Source: Candidatus Rifleibacteriota bacterium (GTDB lineage Bacteria; Muiribacteriota; Ozemobacteria; Ozemobacterales; Ozemobacteraceae). Taken from it: a stretch of DNA of 50,280 nt. The notes under the pieces are model-generated. The model saw only the letters and a program-made list of their open reading frames with translations, made no database searches and was not told the DNA's origin. The position numbers were made by a program, and so were the translations under genes. This document shows positions 30,803 to 47,396 of the stretch, piece by piece. The stretch's first letter is position 1; every line of letters begins with the position of its first letter. The stretch spans positions 1-50,280 of the forward strand of contig JAQVCG010000006.1 in NCBI GenBank assembly GCA_028689875.1, written 5' to 3'.

Positions 30803-30885
30803 GGAGGAATGGCCGAGTGGTCGAAGGCGGCGGTCTTGAAAACCGTTGAGCGAAAGTTCCGTGGGTTCGAATCCTACTTCCTCCG
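30803..30885 (+). tRNA. tRNA-Ser(UGA)
   Basis: A complete class II cloverleaf. Acceptor GGAGGAA pairs with TTCCTCC, and the anticodon loop CTTGAAA has TGA at 30837-30839. There is a long variable arm, a T arm with GTTCGAATC, and discriminator G. CCA is not encoded. Confidence 0.95.
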
Positions 30886-30897
30886 TAGAACATCTCA

Positions 30898-30986
30898 GGA
30901 GAGATGGGTGAGTGGCTTAAACCAACAGTTTGCTAAACTGTCGTATTGGGTAACTGGTACCGGGGGTTCGAATCCCCCTCTCTCCG
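30898..30986 (+). tRNA. tRNA-Ser(GCU)
   Basis: Acceptor GGAGAGA pairs with TCTCTCC. The anticodon stem is ACAGT/ACTGT with loop TTGCTAA (GCT at 30932-30934). There is a long variable arm and discriminator G. CCA is not encoded. Confidence 0.95.
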
Positions 30987-30993
30987 AGGCACT

Positions 30994-31068
30994 GCGCCCG
31001 TAGCTCAGTTTGGATAGAGCACCAGATTGCGGATCTGGTGGCCAGAGGTTCGAGTCCTCTCGGGCGCG
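30994..31068 (+). tRNA. tRNA-Arg(GCG)
   Basis: Acceptor GCGCCCG pairs with CGGGCGC, and the anticodon stem is CCAGA/TCTGG with loop TTGCGGA, so the anticodon is GCG (31029-31031). Bacteria normally read CGU/CGC with tRNA-Arg(ACG) deaminated to ICG, so a GCG anticodon is unusual. Discriminator G; CCA not encoded. It begins 7 bases after tRNA-Ser(GCU). Confidence 0.92.
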
Positions 31069-31075
31069 TTTTATC

Positions 31076-31107
31076 AACACAGATTATAATAATCTGTGTT
31101 TGTTTTT
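31076..31107 (+). terminator. Rho-independent terminator between tRNA-Arg and tRNA-Ser(GGA)
   Basis: A perfect 11-pair stem (31076-31086 with 31090-31100), a 3-base loop and a T-rich tail (TGTTTTT). A TATAAT at 31085-31090 spans the loop, so the same DNA could also supply a -10 box for the next tRNA. Confidence 0.7.
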
Positions 31108-31110
31108 AAT

Positions 31111-31198
31111 GGAAAGGTGGCCGAGTTGGTTTAAGGCGCACGCCTGGAAAGCGTGTGTGGGGCTCCCTCCACCGCGGGTTCAAATCCCGCCCTTTCCG
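31111..31198 (+). tRNA. tRNA-Ser(GGA)
   Basis: Acceptor GGAAAGG pairs with CCTTTCC. The anticodon stem is CACGC/GCGTG with loop CTGGAAA (GGA at 31146-31148). There is a long variable arm, a T arm with GGTTCAAATC, and discriminator G. CCA is not encoded. The SRP RNA begins about 2 bases later. Confidence 0.95.
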
Positions 31199-31200
31199 TT

Positions 31201-31466
<266 letters not shown>

Positions 31467-33385: not shown

Positions 33386-33452
33386 CATACAACAAATTAT
33401 CACATTCAAAGCGCTTGCATCAAGGGTTTTACAATTAGCAATTTTTTGATAC

Positions 33453-33531
33453 TTATGTACACAAAAAGAAAGTGGAAAATGTGGAAAACTATGGGGATAA
33501 GCAGTATCAGCTATTTGAACCTTGTGGAAAA
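33453..33531. other. Cluster of DnaA-box-like sites, candidate origin or DnaA target
   Basis: Three 9-mers differ by one base from TGTGGATAA, the complement of TTATCCACA: 33480-33488, 33492-33500 and 33523-33531. A fourth (33471-33479, two mismatches) directly abuts the first, and a fifth in the opposite orientation lies at 33453-33461 (two mismatches). The four in the same orientation sit within 61 bases. They lie in a gene-free stretch of about 425 bases between dnaX and the next gene, followed by a very AT-rich segment (33600-33700). Gyrase, dciA and remB genes are near, as around many origins. Confidence 0.5.
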
Positions 33532-33548
33532 GAAAATTCCATACCCTC

Positions 33549-33576
33549 TTGACAATCCTTTTGAAGTACGCATAAA
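33549..33576 (+). promoter_or_regulatory. Possible promoter inside the dnaX-downstream gap
   Basis: A perfect TTGACA (33549-33554), 16-base spacer and CATAAA (33571-33576, 4 of 6). If used, the downstream gene would have a leader of about 160 bases. A perfect TATAAT also occurs at 33681-33686 without a matching -35. Confidence 0.35.
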
Positions 33577-33740
33577 GAGGCAATGTCAGCTAAGCACTCA
33601 TTTTTATCAATGACAAGTTTTTTTTAAACCTTTTAGAAAAATTATGCGTATATAAAGTATCGGGTTTGTAAATAATTATGTATAATCAACTTATATCATT
33701 ATGTGTACCGACTTGTTTTTTGCTTTTAAGGAGTAATATT

Positions 33741-37083: not shown

Positions 37084-37521
37084 ATGAGCCCAAAAATTAA
37101 TGTATTTTCTAAAAATGAAGCGCTTGAAATTGATCAAAGAGCAGCGGAAGGCTTAAAATTGTGTCAAAAGGTTTTAAATACTTCAAACCCTATATGTCCG
37201 GCTTTGTTAGATAAGGCATTTTTAAAAATATGCACACAGCGAAGCGAAACAGCAGAAAACAACGACAGTCTTGCAGAGTCATTAGGAGCCTACTTCGGCA
37301 GACTTTTAAAGAATGAGTTTAATATGACTTGGCATTATATTGACGACGAATATGGGCGCGAAAAAGCCTTGATTGACGAAAAAAGCGGCAGCGTCATTTT
37401 CCCTATTAATGCGGTTTTAAAGAGGCTCGAGGGAGCTGCTTCACAAGAACCGTTTTTTGAAATGATGTTTGAAGCGGTAAAAAAACATTTAAACTTTTTA
37501 GACGAAGGTGTCGATAATTAA
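37084..37521 (+). CDS. DUF3806-like hypothetical protein
   Basis: A 145-residue cytoplasmic protein without signal peptide. The central LGAYFGRLLKNEFNMTWHYIDDEYGREKALI stretch, followed by a GSVIFPINAVLKRLEG segment, has the look of the DUF3806/DUF3786-type small domain; this is a weak memory-based match. AGAGAA lies before the ATG. It stands 61 bases before the FlgM-like gene and is divergent from ackA. Function unknown. Confidence 0.6.
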   Translation: MSPKINVFSKNEALEIDQRAAEGLKLCQKVLNTSNPICPALLDKAFLKICTQRSETAENNDSLAESLGAYFGRLLKNEFNMTWHYIDDEYGREKALIDEKSGSVIFPINAVLKRLEGAASQEPFFEMMFEAVKKHLNFLDEGVDN

Positions 37522-37582: not shown

Positions 37583-38092
37583 ATGGTTGATTCCATTCAC
37601 GGTGGACCCGGAAAAACTATTATTATTACCACCAAATCAAAACCAAAAAGTACAGGCTCGGTTGATAAAACCTCTTCTTTCGACGATGAGCTTAAAGGAA
37701 AAACGACTTCATCCGGCGAAAAAACGACTCAAGCAACGATGCTTAACACCGTAGCGCAAAACAACTTAAAGATTATTCAGAACCAGCAGTTGATGCATAT
37801 GCAGAGGGTCCAGGAAATTGCGCGACAGGTTGCTGATGGCACGTACAAAATGTGCTCTCCGGAGGCGTTGGCGGAAAAGCTTATGCTCGTAATGACCGAT
37901 AAGGCCACACGTGAAAAGTTCATCAAGAAACTTATAAAAGAAGAAACAGAAAACCTTGCATCTGAAAACGGTAAAGTAAAGGGTTCCATGACTGAGCTTG
38001 AACTTAAAAAGCTGGTCTACCTCATCAAAGAGTCTCAGGACAGCAAGTTCGACGACCCAGAACTTGAAGCCATGCTAAAAGAGTTCGCCTAA
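37583..38092 (+). CDS. FlgM-like protein, possible anti-sigma28 factor with an extension
   Basis: A 169-residue hydrophilic protein. Residues about 75-104 (RVQEIARQVADGTYKMCSPEALAEKLM) follow the FlgM core pattern, in which an I-x-x-x-V-x-x-G-x-Y segment is followed by an ALAxKL-type helix. FlgM holds sigma28 inactive until the hook is built and is then exported. A Ser/Thr/Lys-rich N-terminal half, as in disordered FlgM, fits, but the 65-residue C-terminal helical extension does not. Typical FlgM proteins have about 100 residues. AGGGAG precedes the ATG. The neighbouring flagellin genes and the sigma28-type promoters support the call. Confidence 0.5.
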   Translation: MVDSIHGGPGKTIIITTKSKPKSTGSVDKTSSFDDELKGKTTSSGEKTTQATMLNTVAQNNLKIIQNQQLMHMQRVQEIARQVADGTYKMCSPEALAEKLMLVMTDKATREKFIKKLIKEETENLASENGKVKGSMTELELKKLVYLIKESQDSKFDDPELEAMLKEFA

Positions 38093-39702: not shown

Positions 39703-39730
39703 TAACATTCTGTATAAAATATGTCGATGA
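39703..39730 (+). promoter_or_regulatory. Possible sigma28-type promoter of the flagellin operon
   Basis: TAAC (39703-39706), 16 bases, then GTCGATGA (39723-39730) resembles TAAA-N15-GCCGATAA with three changes and one extra spacer base. It lies 52 bases before the start at 39782, which has a strong GGAGG site. Confidence 0.4.
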
Positions 39731-39781
39731 ATAATTACGACAGGGATAGTCAGGTTTGTTTTATATCACGGAGGTAAAACA

Positions 39782-40846: not shown

Positions 40847-43024
40847 ATGGCTTTAAGCATAAATCAAAGCTTACTTTCTTTAAAAGCCCTTAACAGCCTA
40901 AACAAGGCCAGTTCGGGACTGGAAAAGTCTGTAAAAAAAATCAGTTCGGGTTTGCGGATTGGCTCTGCCTCTGACGACCCGGCCGGTTTAGCGATGAGCG
41001 AAAAGCTAAGAACTCAAATACGAGGATTTGAAAGGGCCTTTTTGAATGCCCAAGATGGCATATCGATGGTTCAAACGGCCGAGGGAGGTCTTTCTAACAC
41101 TCAGGGCATTTTGCAGCGCATACGAGAGCTTGCCGTTCAGTCTGCAAACTCTACTTTAACCTCTTCTGACCGGCTTTCTGTTCAGCTTGAAGTAAAAGAG
41201 CTGATAGGTCAGATCAATAAAATAGCCGCTTCCACACAGTTTAACACCAAGAATCTATTAAACGGTTCGCAATCTGCGCTGGTAAGTTTAAGTTCAAACT
41301 TTGCATCTGCAGTAGTTTCAGCTAATGCAAATGCTTCAGGCTCATATGATGTAAGTCTTAAAACCCTTAAAGGCGGTGTTTCTGAGGTTCAGCGCAGTCA
41401 AATACTTAAAGAGCGCTCTTCTGAAAAACCGGTTAGCGGCACAACCAAACTAGAAGACATAGCCCAGCTATATGACGCTGACGGGCAGTTTTTATTAGGT
41501 GCCGGCGAAACTTTAACTATTACCGGCAACGGCAAAGACACGGTTATACAGCTTGACCGGCAGCACACATTAAATGATTTAGCCGCCGCCATACAGCAGG
41601 GGCTAAGTTCAGGCCTTGGAATAGAAGGCTCTTATGCTTCGGTGGTTTCAGATGCAAACCAAGGTGTTAGCTACATAGAAGTAGCATCGGGGTTTGCCGG
41701 CGATAAAGGAAGTTTTTCGATTATCGGGTCAGAGGCGCTGACCACGGCGTTAGGTTTTTCTACTGTAAGAAATGCTAAAAACGGCCTTGTTGAGGCAACT
41801 CTTACAGACAGTAAAGGAAACACGCGCAAGACTATAACCGAAAGCCAAAAGATGTCAGGTTTATTAGATGGAATAGCTTTTAAATTTGATTCGCAGGCGG
41901 CGCAGGTTTCGGGGATAGGCGGCATTTCGTCAGGGTTAAGACTATCGACAGCCCAAAACATAGGCTTGAAATTGGGTTCAAATACTCTGAATGTATCGTT
42001 ATCATCGGGTGATTGGTCGATTGAAGGTCTTGCCCGTTCAATAAATGCTCAAATAGAAGCGGACCCCAATTTTTCATTGTCAGGTATAAGGGCTTCAGTG
42101 TCAGACGGTCAAATCAGTTTGGGTTACGACCGCAGCACTTCAGCGCCGCAGCCATTTGAAATAACTACAGGCTCACAAACTCTCGGCATAAACGCAGGCA
42201 GCTATTCTTACTCAGCAAGGGGTAACAAAGACAGCAGCGCCATAGTCGAGGGTTTTAGCACATACAGAAATGAAGCAGCATCAAAGGATATTTCCTTTTC
42301 GATAAATCAGCGCACTTACGCAGCATTTACAACACAAATCGACCCGACCAAGGCCGATTTGGCTAATTCCCTCGAAATGGTTTCAGATTTAAATGACCGG
42401 CTAACATTGGCAAAAGCAGATGTAAGAGTCGATATATCAGGCGATTCGCTGGTTTTTACGTCTTTAAAAGTTGGCACAGACAGGGCCACGAATGCGCGCA
42501 GCGTTGTAAATCTTGATGCAGTAGACCAGTTTGGCAATAAAGACACTGCAACACTGCAACAGTTTGGGTTTAGAAACACTTTATCTTACGGCTACGGTGA
42601 GTCGGGCTTTAGAGCTCAGGTCAAAGACAGCACACCGGCTCTGCAAATAGGTGCTAATGAAGGGCAGACCATGAAGGTTTCAATGGGCGATATGTCTGCA
42701 GACGCTTTGGGTATTGCCGACATTGATTTAACTACAATTCATGGCGCTTCTGCCAGTTTGAGCAAAATCGACAGAGCTATTGACAGCGTTACTTCAGAGG
42801 TTTCGCGGCTTGGCAGCTATCAAAACAGGCTGAATTTTACCATGAACAACATCGAAAACGCTTCGGCTAATATGACAAGTGCCGAATCGCGCATACGAGA
42901 TGCCGATATTGCCGCAGAAATGATTGAATACACTAGAAACCAAATTTTGACCCAAGCCAGCACTGCAATGTTGGCTCAAGCAAACAGCATTATGGGCAAC
43001 GTGCTTACTTTGCTTAAAAAATAA
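40847..43024 (+). CDS. Flagellin with a large central domain
   Basis: This 725-residue filament protein has the conserved flagellin ends. The N-terminal D0/D1 is ALSINQSLLSLKALNSLNKASSGLEKSVKKISSGLRI as fragments, then SASDDPAGLAMSEKLRTQIRG. The C-terminal end is ADIAAEMIEYTRNQILTQASTAMLAQAN...LLKK. The centre (about residues 150-640) is much longer than in ordinary 280-500 residue flagellins and holds at least three units resembling the Flagellin_IN module. It is rich in Ser, Thr and Gly, as expected for glycosylated flagellin. AAGGTGG precedes the ATG. It converges within one base on the next gene, and no terminator is seen. Confidence 0.93.
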   Translation: MALSINQSLLSLKALNSLNKASSGLEKSVKKISSGLRIGSASDDPAGLAMSEKLRTQIRGFERAFLNAQDGISMVQTAEGGLSNTQGILQRIRELAVQSANSTLTSSDRLSVQLEVKELIGQINKIAASTQFNTKNLLNGSQSALVSLSSNFASAVVSANANASGSYDVSLKTLKGGVSEVQRSQILKERSSEKPVSGTTKLEDIAQLYDADGQFLLGAGETLTITGNGKDTVIQLDRQHTLNDLAAAIQQGLSSGLGIEGSYASVVSDANQGVSYIEVASGFAGDKGSFSIIGSEALTTALGFSTVRNAKNGLVEATLTDSKGNTRKTITESQKMSGLLDGIAFKFDSQAAQVSGIGGISSGLRLSTAQNIGLKLGSNTLNVSLSSGDWSIEGLARSINAQIEADPNFSLSGIRASVSDGQISLGYDRSTSAPQPFEITTGSQTLGINAGSYSYSARGNKDSSAIVEGFSTYRNEAASKDISFSINQRTYAAFTTQIDPTKADLANSLEMVSDLNDRLTLAKADVRVDISGDSLVFTSLKVGTDRATNARSVVNLDAVDQFGNKDTATLQQFGFRNTLSYGYGESGFRAQVKDSTPALQIGANEGQTMKVSMGDMSADALGIADIDLTTIHGASASLSKIDRAIDSVTSEVSRLGSYQNRLNFTMNNIENASANMTSAESRIRDADIAAEMIEYTRNQILTQASTAMLAQANSIMGNVLTLLKK

Positions 43025-43739: not shown

Positions 43740-46337
43740 TTACAAAACTTTTATCTTGTTGTCTTCGACACCTATTTCAACTGTAGTATTGTCGGCAACC
43801 CTACCTAAGATTATAGCACGAGCCAACAATGTTTCAAGCTCTTTTTGTATAAGCCTTTTAAGGGGCCTTGCGCCATATATGGGATTATAGCCGTTTTCGA
43901 GCATCCATTTTCGTGCTTCGTTGTTTATGTTAATTTTAATGCCTCTTTCGCTTAGACGTGCTTCTATGTCTTTAACCTGCAAATCAATAATTTTATCGAG
44001 TTGCGCGGGGTGCAGGGTTGAGAACAATATAATGTCGTCGACTCTGTTCAAGAACTCGGGCTTAAAGAAATACTTAACGCTTTCCATAACTTTAGAACGG
44101 GTTTTCTCGGAAATGTCGCCTGATTCTCCGATGTCGTCTATGATTGCCTGTGCCCCTAAGTTGCTTGTCATTATCACAACCACGTTTTTAAAGTCGACTA
44201 CACGCCCCTGAGAGTCGGTTAATCGGCCGTCGTCTAATAATTGCAGAAGCACATTAAACACGTCTTGATGGGCCTTTTCTATTTCGTCAAACAGCACAAC
44301 CGAATAAGGTTTTCGTCTGACGGCCTCAGTAAGCTGGCCGCCTTCATCATAACCGATATACCCCGGAGGCGCTCCGATTAAACGGCTAACAGAATGTTTT
44401 TCCATATATTCGCTCATGTCTATTCTGATCATGTTGTGTTCAGAATCAAACAAAGCCTCTGCCAGTGCTTTTGCTAGCTCAGTTTTACCAACACCGGTCG
44501 GGCCTAATAATATAAACGAACCGATAGGTCTGTTAGGGTCTTTGATTCCGGCGCGCGACCTTATAACCGCATCTGTTACGGCCGAAATAGCCTCGTCTTG
44601 CCCGATTACTCTTTGATGCAGTTCATCATCTAAGTTCATAAGGCGCTCTTTTTCGCCTTCCATAAGCTTTGCAACAGGTATACCCGTCCATTTGCCTATT
44701 ATGTTGGCTATTTCTTCTTCGGTAACCTCTTCGCGCACCAGTTTGCCGGTATTTTGCTTTTCTTTAAGCGCTGCTTCAAATTCTTTTAATTGCTTTTGCG
44801 CCTCGGGCAACTTGCCGTGTTTAAGCTCTGCAGCACGATTTAAGTCGTATTGACGCTCAGCCTCAGCAATATCTTGATTCAATTTTTCAATCAGCTCTCT
44901 TTGAGCCTGCACTCTTTTTATAACGCCTCTTTCGCTTTCCCACTGGGCCTTCATGGCGTCGCCCTCGCCCTTAAGATCGGCAAGTTCTTTGCGCAAAACT
45001 TCTAGTCGGTTCAAGCTTTGCTCGTCTTTTTCTTTTATAAGTGCGGCCTCTTCAATTTCAAGCTGCATAACACGTCGCATAACCGAATCAAGCTCTGTAG
45101 GCATTGATTCGATGTCAGTTTTAATCATAGCGCAAGCTTCGTCGATCAAGTCGATTGCCTTATCGGGAAGGAAGCGTTCGGAAATGTATCTGTCAGACAA
45201 AGTTGCTGCTGCTACTAAGGCGCGGTCTTGAATCTTAACCCCATGAAACACTTCAAATCGCTCTTTTAGTCCACGCAAAATCGAAATTGTATCGCTGACA
45301 TCGGGCTGTTCAACTAATACAGGCTGGAATCGTCGTTCTAATGCCGCATCTTTTTCAATATGTTTTCTGTATTCGTCTAATGTAGTAGCGCCCACGCAGT
45401 GCAACTCACCTCTGGCTAACATAGGTTTAAGCATATTGCCGGCGTCCATTGAGCCTTCGGCCTTGCCCGCCCCTACTATTGTGTGCAGCTCGTCTATGAA
45501 AAGAATTATTTTGCCATCGCTGCTCTTTATTTCTGCCAAAACTGCTTTTAAACGCTCTTCAAATTCGCCTCTAAACTTTGCACCCGCAATAAGAGCACCC
45601 ATATCTAAGGCAAAAATTGTTTTGCTTTTTAAACTTTCGGGCACGTCACCTTGAAGGATTCTCTGTGCCAACCCTTCTGCTATTGCAGTTTTACCAACAC
45701 CCGGTTCACCTATGAGCACCGGGTTATTTTTAGTTTTGCGCGACAAAATTCGCATAACTCTACGAATTTCGTTATCACGACCAATTACAGGATCAAGTTT
45801 CCCTAAACGGGCCATTGCAACCAGGTCACGGCCATATTTTGCCAAGGCTTCGTAGGTTTGCTCAGGATTAGCAGAAGTAATGCGCTGATTGCCTCTTACA
45901 GAAGTCAGCGCCTGCAAAAAAGCTTCTTTGTTAAGGCCAAATCCGGCGAATATCTTCGCAACAGCAGTATTTTTTTGGCTGATCATTGCTAAAACTATGT
46001 GCTCGACCGAAAGATATTCGTCTTTTAGGGCATTCATTTCTTTTTCGGCTTCAACAAGCAACAATGAGGCTTCACGGCTCATGTAAAACTTGTCAGGCGA
46101 CATACCCGGCCCCGAAAGCTTTGGCAGCCTTTGAACTGCTTCTTCAGTTTTATCTCTAACCGCCGAGAGCGGAATATTTATGCTGTTTAAAAGTCTCGGA
46201 ATCAAGTCTGTTTCTTGTTGAAGCAAGGCAAGCAAAAGATGTTCAGGTTGAATTTCCTGATTACCGTATTTAACTGCTAATGTTTGGGCTGTTTGCAAAG
46301 CTTCTTGAGATTTTTCAGTGAATTTATTGATATTCAT
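43740..46337 (-). CDS. clpB: Protein disaggregase chaperone ClpB
   Basis: This 865-residue Hsp100 chaperone threads aggregated proteins through its central pore with DnaK help. It has the two-repeat Clp N-domain, the first AAA+ module ([28 protein letters not shown]), and the long coiled-coil middle domain that marks ClpB (about residues 400-520, with QLEIEEAAL and [14 protein letters not shown]). The second AAA+ module ([41 protein letters not shown] as fragments) follows. An in-frame GTG at 46352 gives a 5-residue longer form, but ATG 46337 with GAGGAAA upstream is better. No CIRCE element was found upstream. Confidence 0.95.
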
Positions 46338-46367
46338 AACTCGTTTCCTCACTTTTCAGTCAAAGAT

Positions 46368-46376
46368 ATTATACCA
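46368..46376 (-). promoter_or_regulatory. Extended -10 promoter of clpB
   Basis: On the minus strand TGG followed by TATAAT (46376-46368) is an exact extended -10 element; no good -35 is visible. It lies 30 bases before the ATG. Confidence 0.55.
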
Positions 46377-46396
46377 AATAATTAATAGCATAATGC

Positions 46397-46438
46397 ATGC
46401 CAATTCTTAAAAGGCTCATTAAATGAGAATTTAGGCAT
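46397..46438. repeat. Imperfect inverted repeat upstream of clpB
   Basis: ATGCC-AATTCT pairs with AGAATT-TA-GGCAT around an inner CTCATTAAATGAG palindrome, giving a 42-base structure 20 bases above the clpB -10. It is a possible operator or RNA hairpin. Confidence 0.4.
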
Positions 46439-46534
46439 TATTATTCTTAATAAAGCGCTATTATGCGACGTTTTGGCTACGTTGCGGTGCTACGAAAAAA
46501 AACTTAAAAAAACAAAAATAAACAAAAATAGGGC

Positions 46535-46561
46535 TAAAGTTTTTTTTTATAATGCCGATGT
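46535..46561 (+). promoter_or_regulatory. Near-perfect sigma28 (FliA) promoter with no gene downstream
   Basis: TAAAGTTT (46535-46542), 11 bases, GCCGATGT (46554-46561) agrees with the enterobacterial sigma28 consensus TAAAGTTT-N11-GCCGATAA at 14 of 16 positions with exact spacing. The only plus-strand target in the next 100 bases is the hairpin region ending at 46662. Confidence 0.65.
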
Positions 46562-46567
46562 ATAGGT

Positions 46568-46662
46568 TAGAGGGTTCTAATAATACGCAAAGACCTTTAT
46601 AAAATTCACTCTTCTAATAGAAATCGCCCGCAGCCTTGAGCAAGCAACGGGCGATTTCTATT
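46568..46662 (+). ncRNA. Putative sigma28-dependent small RNA
   Basis: From the expected start (about 46568) to the end of a 15-pair perfect hairpin (46616-46630 with 46648-46662, containing a smaller CTTG/CAAG inner stem) there is no open reading frame with an ATG. A transcript of about 95 bases would end in a strong hairpin followed by an AT-rich stretch (not a clean T-run). The existence of this RNA is an inference from promoter plus hairpin. Confidence 0.4.
46616..46662 (-). terminator. Long hairpin, terminator-like, after the DUF481 gene
   Basis: A perfect 15-base inverted repeat with a 17-base loop, 6 bases beyond the stop of the minus-strand DUF481 gene. It lacks a T-run on the minus strand, so its action as terminator is less certain. 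It is shared with the plus-strand putative RNA. Confidence 0.55.
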
Positions 46663-46667
46663 ATGCG

Positions 46668-47396
46668 TCAGATTTTATAAACTAGCGATGTGTAAAAGCC
46701 GTTATCCTGCCTTTTATAGCCGTCTACCGGGGTTTGGCGGTAACTTACGGTGTATTTCATTTCCATATCGAATTTTGCATTTACGTTAAACAAAGTGCCT
46801 ATAGAAGCGTCAACCTTGTAGTTATCTTTTGAATCTCTGCTTGGAACGCTATAATCAATGACGCTGAAGCCGCGAATATTCTCTGCAAGTATTTTTTTCG
46901 CTGAGATTCCGGCTTTTAGCCATTTTTCATCGTGACTTTTGCCGGTTGTATATTTTTCATTTGTGAAATCAAGACCCAATGACACTTTCAATTCTTTTTC
47001 TTCGCATCTTTCGAAGTATCTCATATAACCGAAACCGAAAGTTACCTGACTGTCGTAACCGGCAAATTCGTCTGTCATATAGCCATTTGACAAGTAGTAA
47101 GAATTATTTTCTGTGTTTTTAAATTCGCTTGTAATGCCAAATTGTTTTTTGTCGGCATTTTTTTGGTCGTTAGCTTTGCCGTATAGAACTAAGCCGTTGT
47201 AATTCAATTTTAGTTTATCGTGTTTTGTTTCAGATAAGCCATATGCAAAGTTAATTTTGCTTTCTTTGGTATTACCTTTTGTATCAGAGTAACCAAGCGA
47301 AAGTCGCCCTTTTAATGGTGTATCGGCAGCAAACAAAGCCCCATTAGCAAGAAAGCAAATTAAAAACACTAGAAATGCGTTAGAATAAAATTTCAT
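46668..47396 (-). CDS. DUF481-family outer-membrane beta-barrel protein
   Basis: A protein of about 242 residues. The start is ATG 47396, fixed by GGAGG at 47405-47401 and by the signal peptide that begins there (KFYSNAFLVFLICFLANGALFA). Upstream in-frame codons to 47456 are not used by this logic. The mature part begins LKGRLSLGYSDTKGNTKESKINFAYG and continues as regular amphipathic strands, as in DUF481 (YdiY-like, salt-induced) outer-membrane proteins. It ends LVYKI. Transport substrate unknown. It faces the clpB upstream region across a gene-free 315-base gap. Confidence 0.75.
   Translation of the reverse strand: MKFYSNAFLVFLICFLANGALFAADTPLKGRLSLGYSDTKGNTKESKINFAYGLSETKHDKLKLNYNGLVLYGKANDQKNADKKQFGITSEFKNTENNSYYLSNGYMTDEFAGYDSQVTFGFGYMRYFERCEEKELKVSLGLDFTNEKYTTGKSHDEKWLKAGISAKKILAENIRGFSVIDYSVPSRDSKDNYKVDASIGTLFNVNAKFDMEMKYTVSYRQTPVDGYKRQDNGFYTSLVYKI

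Follow-up and report, generated by a model that had tools for sequence, protein, structure and literature searches.

Two non-coding RNAs of Campylobacter jejuni, CjNC1 (CJnc10) and CjNC4 (CJnc170, FlmR), stand alone beside unrelated genes, have a sigma28 promoter with a CGAT-type -10 box and end in a stem-loop terminator (PMC4626219, PMC11187230). They are shorter than 50 nt and paralogous, their predicted targets are sigma54 genes, and their dependence on FliA has been demonstrated (PMC4626219, PMC11187230); overexpression of CJnc170 lowers motility (PMC11187230). The sigma28-dependent small RNAs (sRNAs) UhpU, MotR, FliX and FlgO of E. coli, by comparison, derive from UTRs (PMC10578931). For most intragenic FliA sites of E. 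coli no RNA is detectable (PMC4183435), so even a good FliA site is no proof of a useful product.

We analyzed a 50,280-nucleotide stretch of contig JAQVCG010000006.1 from Candidatus Rifleibacteriota bacterium (hereafter, the window), in which a sequence-only reading had proposed a sigma28 promoter and a flagellar small RNA between clpB and a DUF481 gene. The bacterium is motile and uncultured, and we know of no cultured model for its lineage. The features discussed below are collected in Table 1.

Table 1. Features of the window relevant to the candidate promoter and RNA
Feature	Position	Strand	Details
Reference sigma28 promoter	37490..37518	+	TAAACTTT-N12-GTCGATAA; before the flgM-like gene, within the 3' end of the preceding gene
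FlgM-like anti-sigma28 gene	37583..38092	+	PF04316, 24.8 bits (cut-off 25)
Reference sigma28-like promoter	39703..39731	+	TAACATTC-N12-GTCGATGA; precedes the operon containing the flagellin gene; conserved in the sister species
Flagellin gene	40847..43024	+	PF00669 and PF00700
clpB	43740..46343	-	TIGR03346, 1339.5 bits; divergent from the candidate transcript
sigma28-type promoter	46535..46561	+	-35 TAAAGTTT (46535-46542), spacer 11, -10 GCCGATGT (46554-46561)
Candidate non-coding transcript, about 95-100 nt	46566..46664	+	Putative start about 46565-46570, putative end at the hairpin; placed from promoter and hairpin positions
Near-symmetric hairpin, 15-16 bp	46615..46663	.	Terminator of DUF481 (minus strand), probably also of the plus-strand transcript
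DUF481 outer-membrane-type protein gene	46668..47396	-	PF04338, E 1.6e-28; convergent with the candidate transcript

The sigma28-type site and the flagellar genes of the lineage

The site at 46535-46561 reads TAAAGTTT-TTTTTTATAAT-GCCGATGT on the plus strand and agrees with the E. coli-type consensus at 14 of 16 positions, the last two bases of the -10 being GT rather than AA. Its part TAAAGTTT-N11-GCCGAT (46535-46559) had been described as matching the first 14 positions of the FliA consensus; this was confirmed, and it is the sole match without mismatches both in the window and in the 2,377,465-base assembly. Little can be concluded from the E. coli consensus alone, because the loose pattern (up to two mismatches) matched the assembly 61 times and the reversed control 57 times, that is, without enrichment. 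The site fits the sigma28 form (-35 TAAA(GTTT) and -10 (GC)CGAT(AA), 11-12 apart) and matches the flagellar promoters of this lineage, and we searched with a genus-tuned motif, TAAANTTT-N11-12-GNCGATR (as TAAANTTTN{11,12}GNCGATR), built from the promoters at 37490 and 39703 and the 46535 site itself. The window contained two matches against 0.01 expected from window shuffles, the 2.38-Mb assembly two (37490 and 46535) against none in the control, and the genome of a sister species nine against one in the control, with orthologues of both the 37490 and the 46535 site among the nine. As the 46535 site was itself used to build the motif, its sister-species orthologue and the flgM site are what count as independent evidence. 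The promoter at 37490, with a spacing of 12, has near-identical surroundings in the sister species.

No FliA gene scored above the cut-off in the present assembly, which is derived from a metagenome, fragmented and 71% complete. FliA was found in all 23 other genomes of the family, including the sister species, and a 4670-base contig of the present assembly (C160) that carries the neighboring DNA stops just before the place of the sister's FliA region. The FliA gene was most likely lost here in an assembly gap. The original call of a sigma28 promoter is well supported by the genus motif, by the retention of the site in the sister species and by the occurrence of FlgM, FliA and flagellin in the lineage. 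We consider it probable, with a real margin of doubt, that 46535-46561 is a genuine sigma28 (FliA) promoter giving rise to a discrete non-coding transcript.

The motif matches in the sister species also include sites before pilM and before small open reading frames (ORFs) with a ribosome-binding site. One is a good genus-type site about 70 bp before pilM (L125 around 1501; G001:C31:16217), which would connect type IV pili with FliA; two others lie before small cysteine-rich ORFs with good ribosome-binding sites (L121 and L129 around 1501). The lineage-specific motif offers a means of listing the FliA regulon, with the site before this type IV pilus gene as one member. Scanning of MCP genes for sigma28 sites yielded none that was convincing, and the E. 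coli-type consensus (at least 12 of 16 positions) is missing from most flagellin leaders of the family, although CGATA-type -10 boxes occur at a variable distance. In family genomes such as L083, L086 and L079, the flagellin leaders share a hairpin (GCAAGGATGC) and a ribosome-binding site (CACGGAGGAATC) immediately upstream of the start codon. These provide two GGA motifs typical of CsrA binding and suggest CsrA/FliW-type control of flagellin translation.

Conservation of the clpB-DUF481 gap and the hairpin beside DUF481

Gene order around clpB and DUF481 is the same in the sister species. The gap between the two genes is 68% identical overall, and the kept runs coincide with the ribosome-binding site of clpB, a stretch of CGTAGC repeats, both promoter boxes and the core of the hairpin. 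Most other gaps in the block are more conserved than this one, and we accordingly judged conservation by the placement of the kept runs rather than by the mean. In the alignment, the -35 block AGGGCTAAAGTTTTTTT is kept at 17 of 17 positions and the -10 block CGATGTATA at 9 of 9, and the spacer between them has diverged in sequence and changed in length from 11 here to 12 in the sister, the spacing of the flgM promoter; both lengths are within the genus range. The promoter blocks stand out because the four-fold sites of the neighboring DUF481 gene are only 59% identical (the DUF481 protein gene is 86% identical). From the promoter to the hairpin, the putative RNA body shows about 50% identity and an indel of 13 bases; its longest kept stretch is AATACGCA, part of a conserved 5' segment AATACGCA-AGAC-TTTAT. 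Drawn from two sequences, this pattern is suggestive rather than conclusive.

The element had been expected to recur in relatives, and this held for the sister species, where both boxes and the hairpin are present, and failed at the other family ClpB loci with enough upstream sequence: no sigma28-like site was found in the 500 bp upstream of 18 other ClpB loci (in three of them, L144, L145 and L161, the upstream sequence was too short for the locus to be counted). As far as the compared genomes show, the combination of promoter and hairpin appears to be specific to one genus, with two species. A repeated element was rejected: the assembly contains no second copy, and the other DNA matches are A/T-rich noise or self-matches of the palindromic hairpin. 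Two other promoters were considered and dismissed. A sigma70 promoter in place of the sigma28 one (TATAAT, 46548-46553) has no good -35, and the TATAAT, located within the spacer, is absent from the sister species; a minus-strand clpB promoter as the cause of the conservation is at odds with the change of its -10-like string in the sister species.

The hairpin that had been noted as 15 perfect pairs ending at 46662 was borne out (arms 46616-46630 and 46648-46662), with one more pair, T46615-A46663. It starts 5 bp beyond the DUF481 stop (46668), on the opposite strand to the candidate transcript. The core, CGCCCG/CGGGCG, is flanked by AATAGAAAT/ATTTCTATT, such that the hairpin reads nearly alike in both directions and has a U-rich 3' arm (ATTTCTATT) whichever strand is read. 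On the minus strand, the features of an intrinsic terminator (a G+C-rich stem and a U-rich stretch just after the stop) are all present after DUF481; on the plus strand, the U-rich part sits in the 3' arm. A simple terminator scan listed the hairpin as terminator-like on the minus strand and did not list it on the plus strand. Between the two species, the hairpin shows two compensatory pairs, at alignment columns 105/143 (G-C versus A-U) and 118/130 (G-C versus U-A), with none in slid controls, although with two sequences column shuffles cannot reach significance. The hairpin is most simply explained as a maintained DUF481 terminator, which a plus-strand transcript would also meet; given its position 5 bp after the stop and its near symmetry, it is foremost the DUF481 terminator and probably bidirectional. 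Bidirectional intrinsic terminators exist between convergent transcripts, and the present one resembles them in its G+C-rich core and in A-rich and U-rich arms readable on both strands; the difference is that one of the two transcripts would be non-coding here. The hairpin that had been tied to the proposed RNA is present, but it is not specific to that RNA, being fully explained as a DUF481 terminator usable from both sides.

Other conserved or RNA-coding stretches of the window are recorded here as separate observations. Upstream of clpB (46468-46500), the two species share a CGTAGC-N7-CGTAGC block (minus strand), a possible heat-shock operator. A long, strongly conserved gene-free stretch (33431-33580) lies between a dnaX-like gene and a 478-amino-acid ORF; it has identical runs of 42, 25, 20 and 21 bases and contains repeated GTGGAAAA. 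At 30803-31465, four tRNA genes precede an SRP RNA gene of the large type.

The candidate small RNA and rival explanations

As the sequence-only reading had it, the site lies in the clpB-DUF481 gap and is followed by no coding frame on the plus strand: both flanking genes are on the minus strand, and 46344-46667 contains no plus-strand ORF of at least 50 amino acids. A small ORF at the locus was rejected, the sole nearby ATG (46558) lying inside the -10 and its frame being absent from the sister species. About 55 bases without an ORF separate the promoter from the hairpin. The plus-strand RNA 46566-46680 folds with -34.2 kcal/mol (z -4.85), and the sister-species RNA folds alike (z -5.37). The locus has these traits of a stand-alone sigma28-dependent sRNA of the CjNC1/CjNC4 kind: its own sigma28 promoter, no ORF and a terminator within about 50-150 nt. 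Searched against Rfam sRNA families, the region gave none above the gathering score, only sub-threshold chance matches.

We infer the transcription of the locus, its start and end (from the promoter and hairpin positions) and any regulatory role. FlgM would free FliA late in flagellar assembly, and RNA polymerase would start at about 46566-46570 on the plus strand, make a non-coding leader and halt at the near-symmetric hairpin, which would also terminate the DUF481 mRNA arriving from the opposite side. The product would be a primary, stand-alone sRNA with a little-structured 5' half and a 3' terminator stem, most likely acting in trans by base-pairing through the 5' half, as is thought for the Campylobacter sigma28-dependent RNAs. 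A discrete RNA made from the 46535 promoter is likely, and the predicted length of about 95-100 nt agrees with the roughly 95 bases proposed originally. A regulatory function is plausible; that the RNA is a functional trans-acting regulator is a tentative reading, to which we would give clearly less than even weight. The fuller scenario of a FliA-made, trans-acting flagellar RNA that would feed back on flagellar or envelope genes, with the symmetric terminator shared with DUF481, complementary loops and possible 3'-3' pairing, is doubtful in that complete form. Of the original link between flagellar assembly and a regulatory RNA, the promoter part stands, and the regulatory part is weakened by the poor conservation of the RNA body and by a duplex-energy search of 25 leaders in the window, in which the best candidate target had z -2.45 and none rose above background.

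The same weak conservation, the confinement of the element to one genus and the fruitless target search would also fit an orphan or relic sigma28 promoter, left by a lost flagellar gene or of chance origin, with a short useless transcript that ends at the DUF481 terminator. This explanation keeps an appreciable share of the probability because many orphan FliA sites within E. coli genes yield no detectable RNA (PMC4183435). However, a useless promoter should have decayed, whereas both boxes were kept here while the spacer changed and DUF481 four-fold identity dropped to the level given above; we regard a relic or chance-born promoter as unlikely, though still to be reckoned with. A site that is no promoter at all, beside a hairpin that merely terminates DUF481, would accord with the A/T-rich region, with its T and A runs, and with the lack of genome-wide enrichment of the E. 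coli-type motif at up to two mismatches. The near-zero expectation for the genus motif in the window and the retention of the right boxes at an allowed spacing in the orthologous site make such a chance match highly improbable.

The transcription itself could also be what matters, the RNA being a by-product: head-on sigma28 transcription, through collision or 3'-end pairing, would lower DUF481 expression or block DUF481-to-clpB read-through during flagellar assembly. The convergent layout with its shared near-symmetric hairpin, the overlap of about 50 nt with the DUF481 3'-UTR and the same layout in the sister species are in keeping with such action in cis, but with a strong terminator between the two transcripts collision inside DUF481 should be rare, and we consider this improbable, if somewhat less so than a chance match. 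The terminator bears likewise on the earlier suggestion that a longer transcript would run antisense to the 3' end of DUF481: the transcript would overlap the 3'-UTR as given above, but reaching the coding end would mean passing the strong terminator. Our preferred reading remains a real sigma28 promoter with a probable discrete non-coding product.

Relation to known sigma28-dependent RNAs

If the RNA is transcribed, an uncultured lineage would join Campylobacter and E. coli in having sigma28-controlled sRNAs, which would suggest that an RNA layer on flagellar control arose more than once. Like the present site, the orphan FliA promoters inside E. coli genes (PMC4183435) are not placed before a gene; the present site, in contrast, is intergenic, has a terminator downstream and persists in the sister species. 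With UhpU, MotR, FliX and FlgO of E. coli, the candidate would share control by FliA (predicted here), but it would be transcribed from an intergenic promoter of its own rather than derive from an mRNA. Most similar among the described cases are CjNC1 and CjNC4, with which the locus has in common a short gene-free transcript (putative here), a sigma28 promoter with a CGAT-type -10, a stem-loop end and unrelated neighbors. Unlike these RNAs, the candidate would be about twice as long or more, occurs in a single copy, was targetless in our search and belongs to an unrelated lineage.
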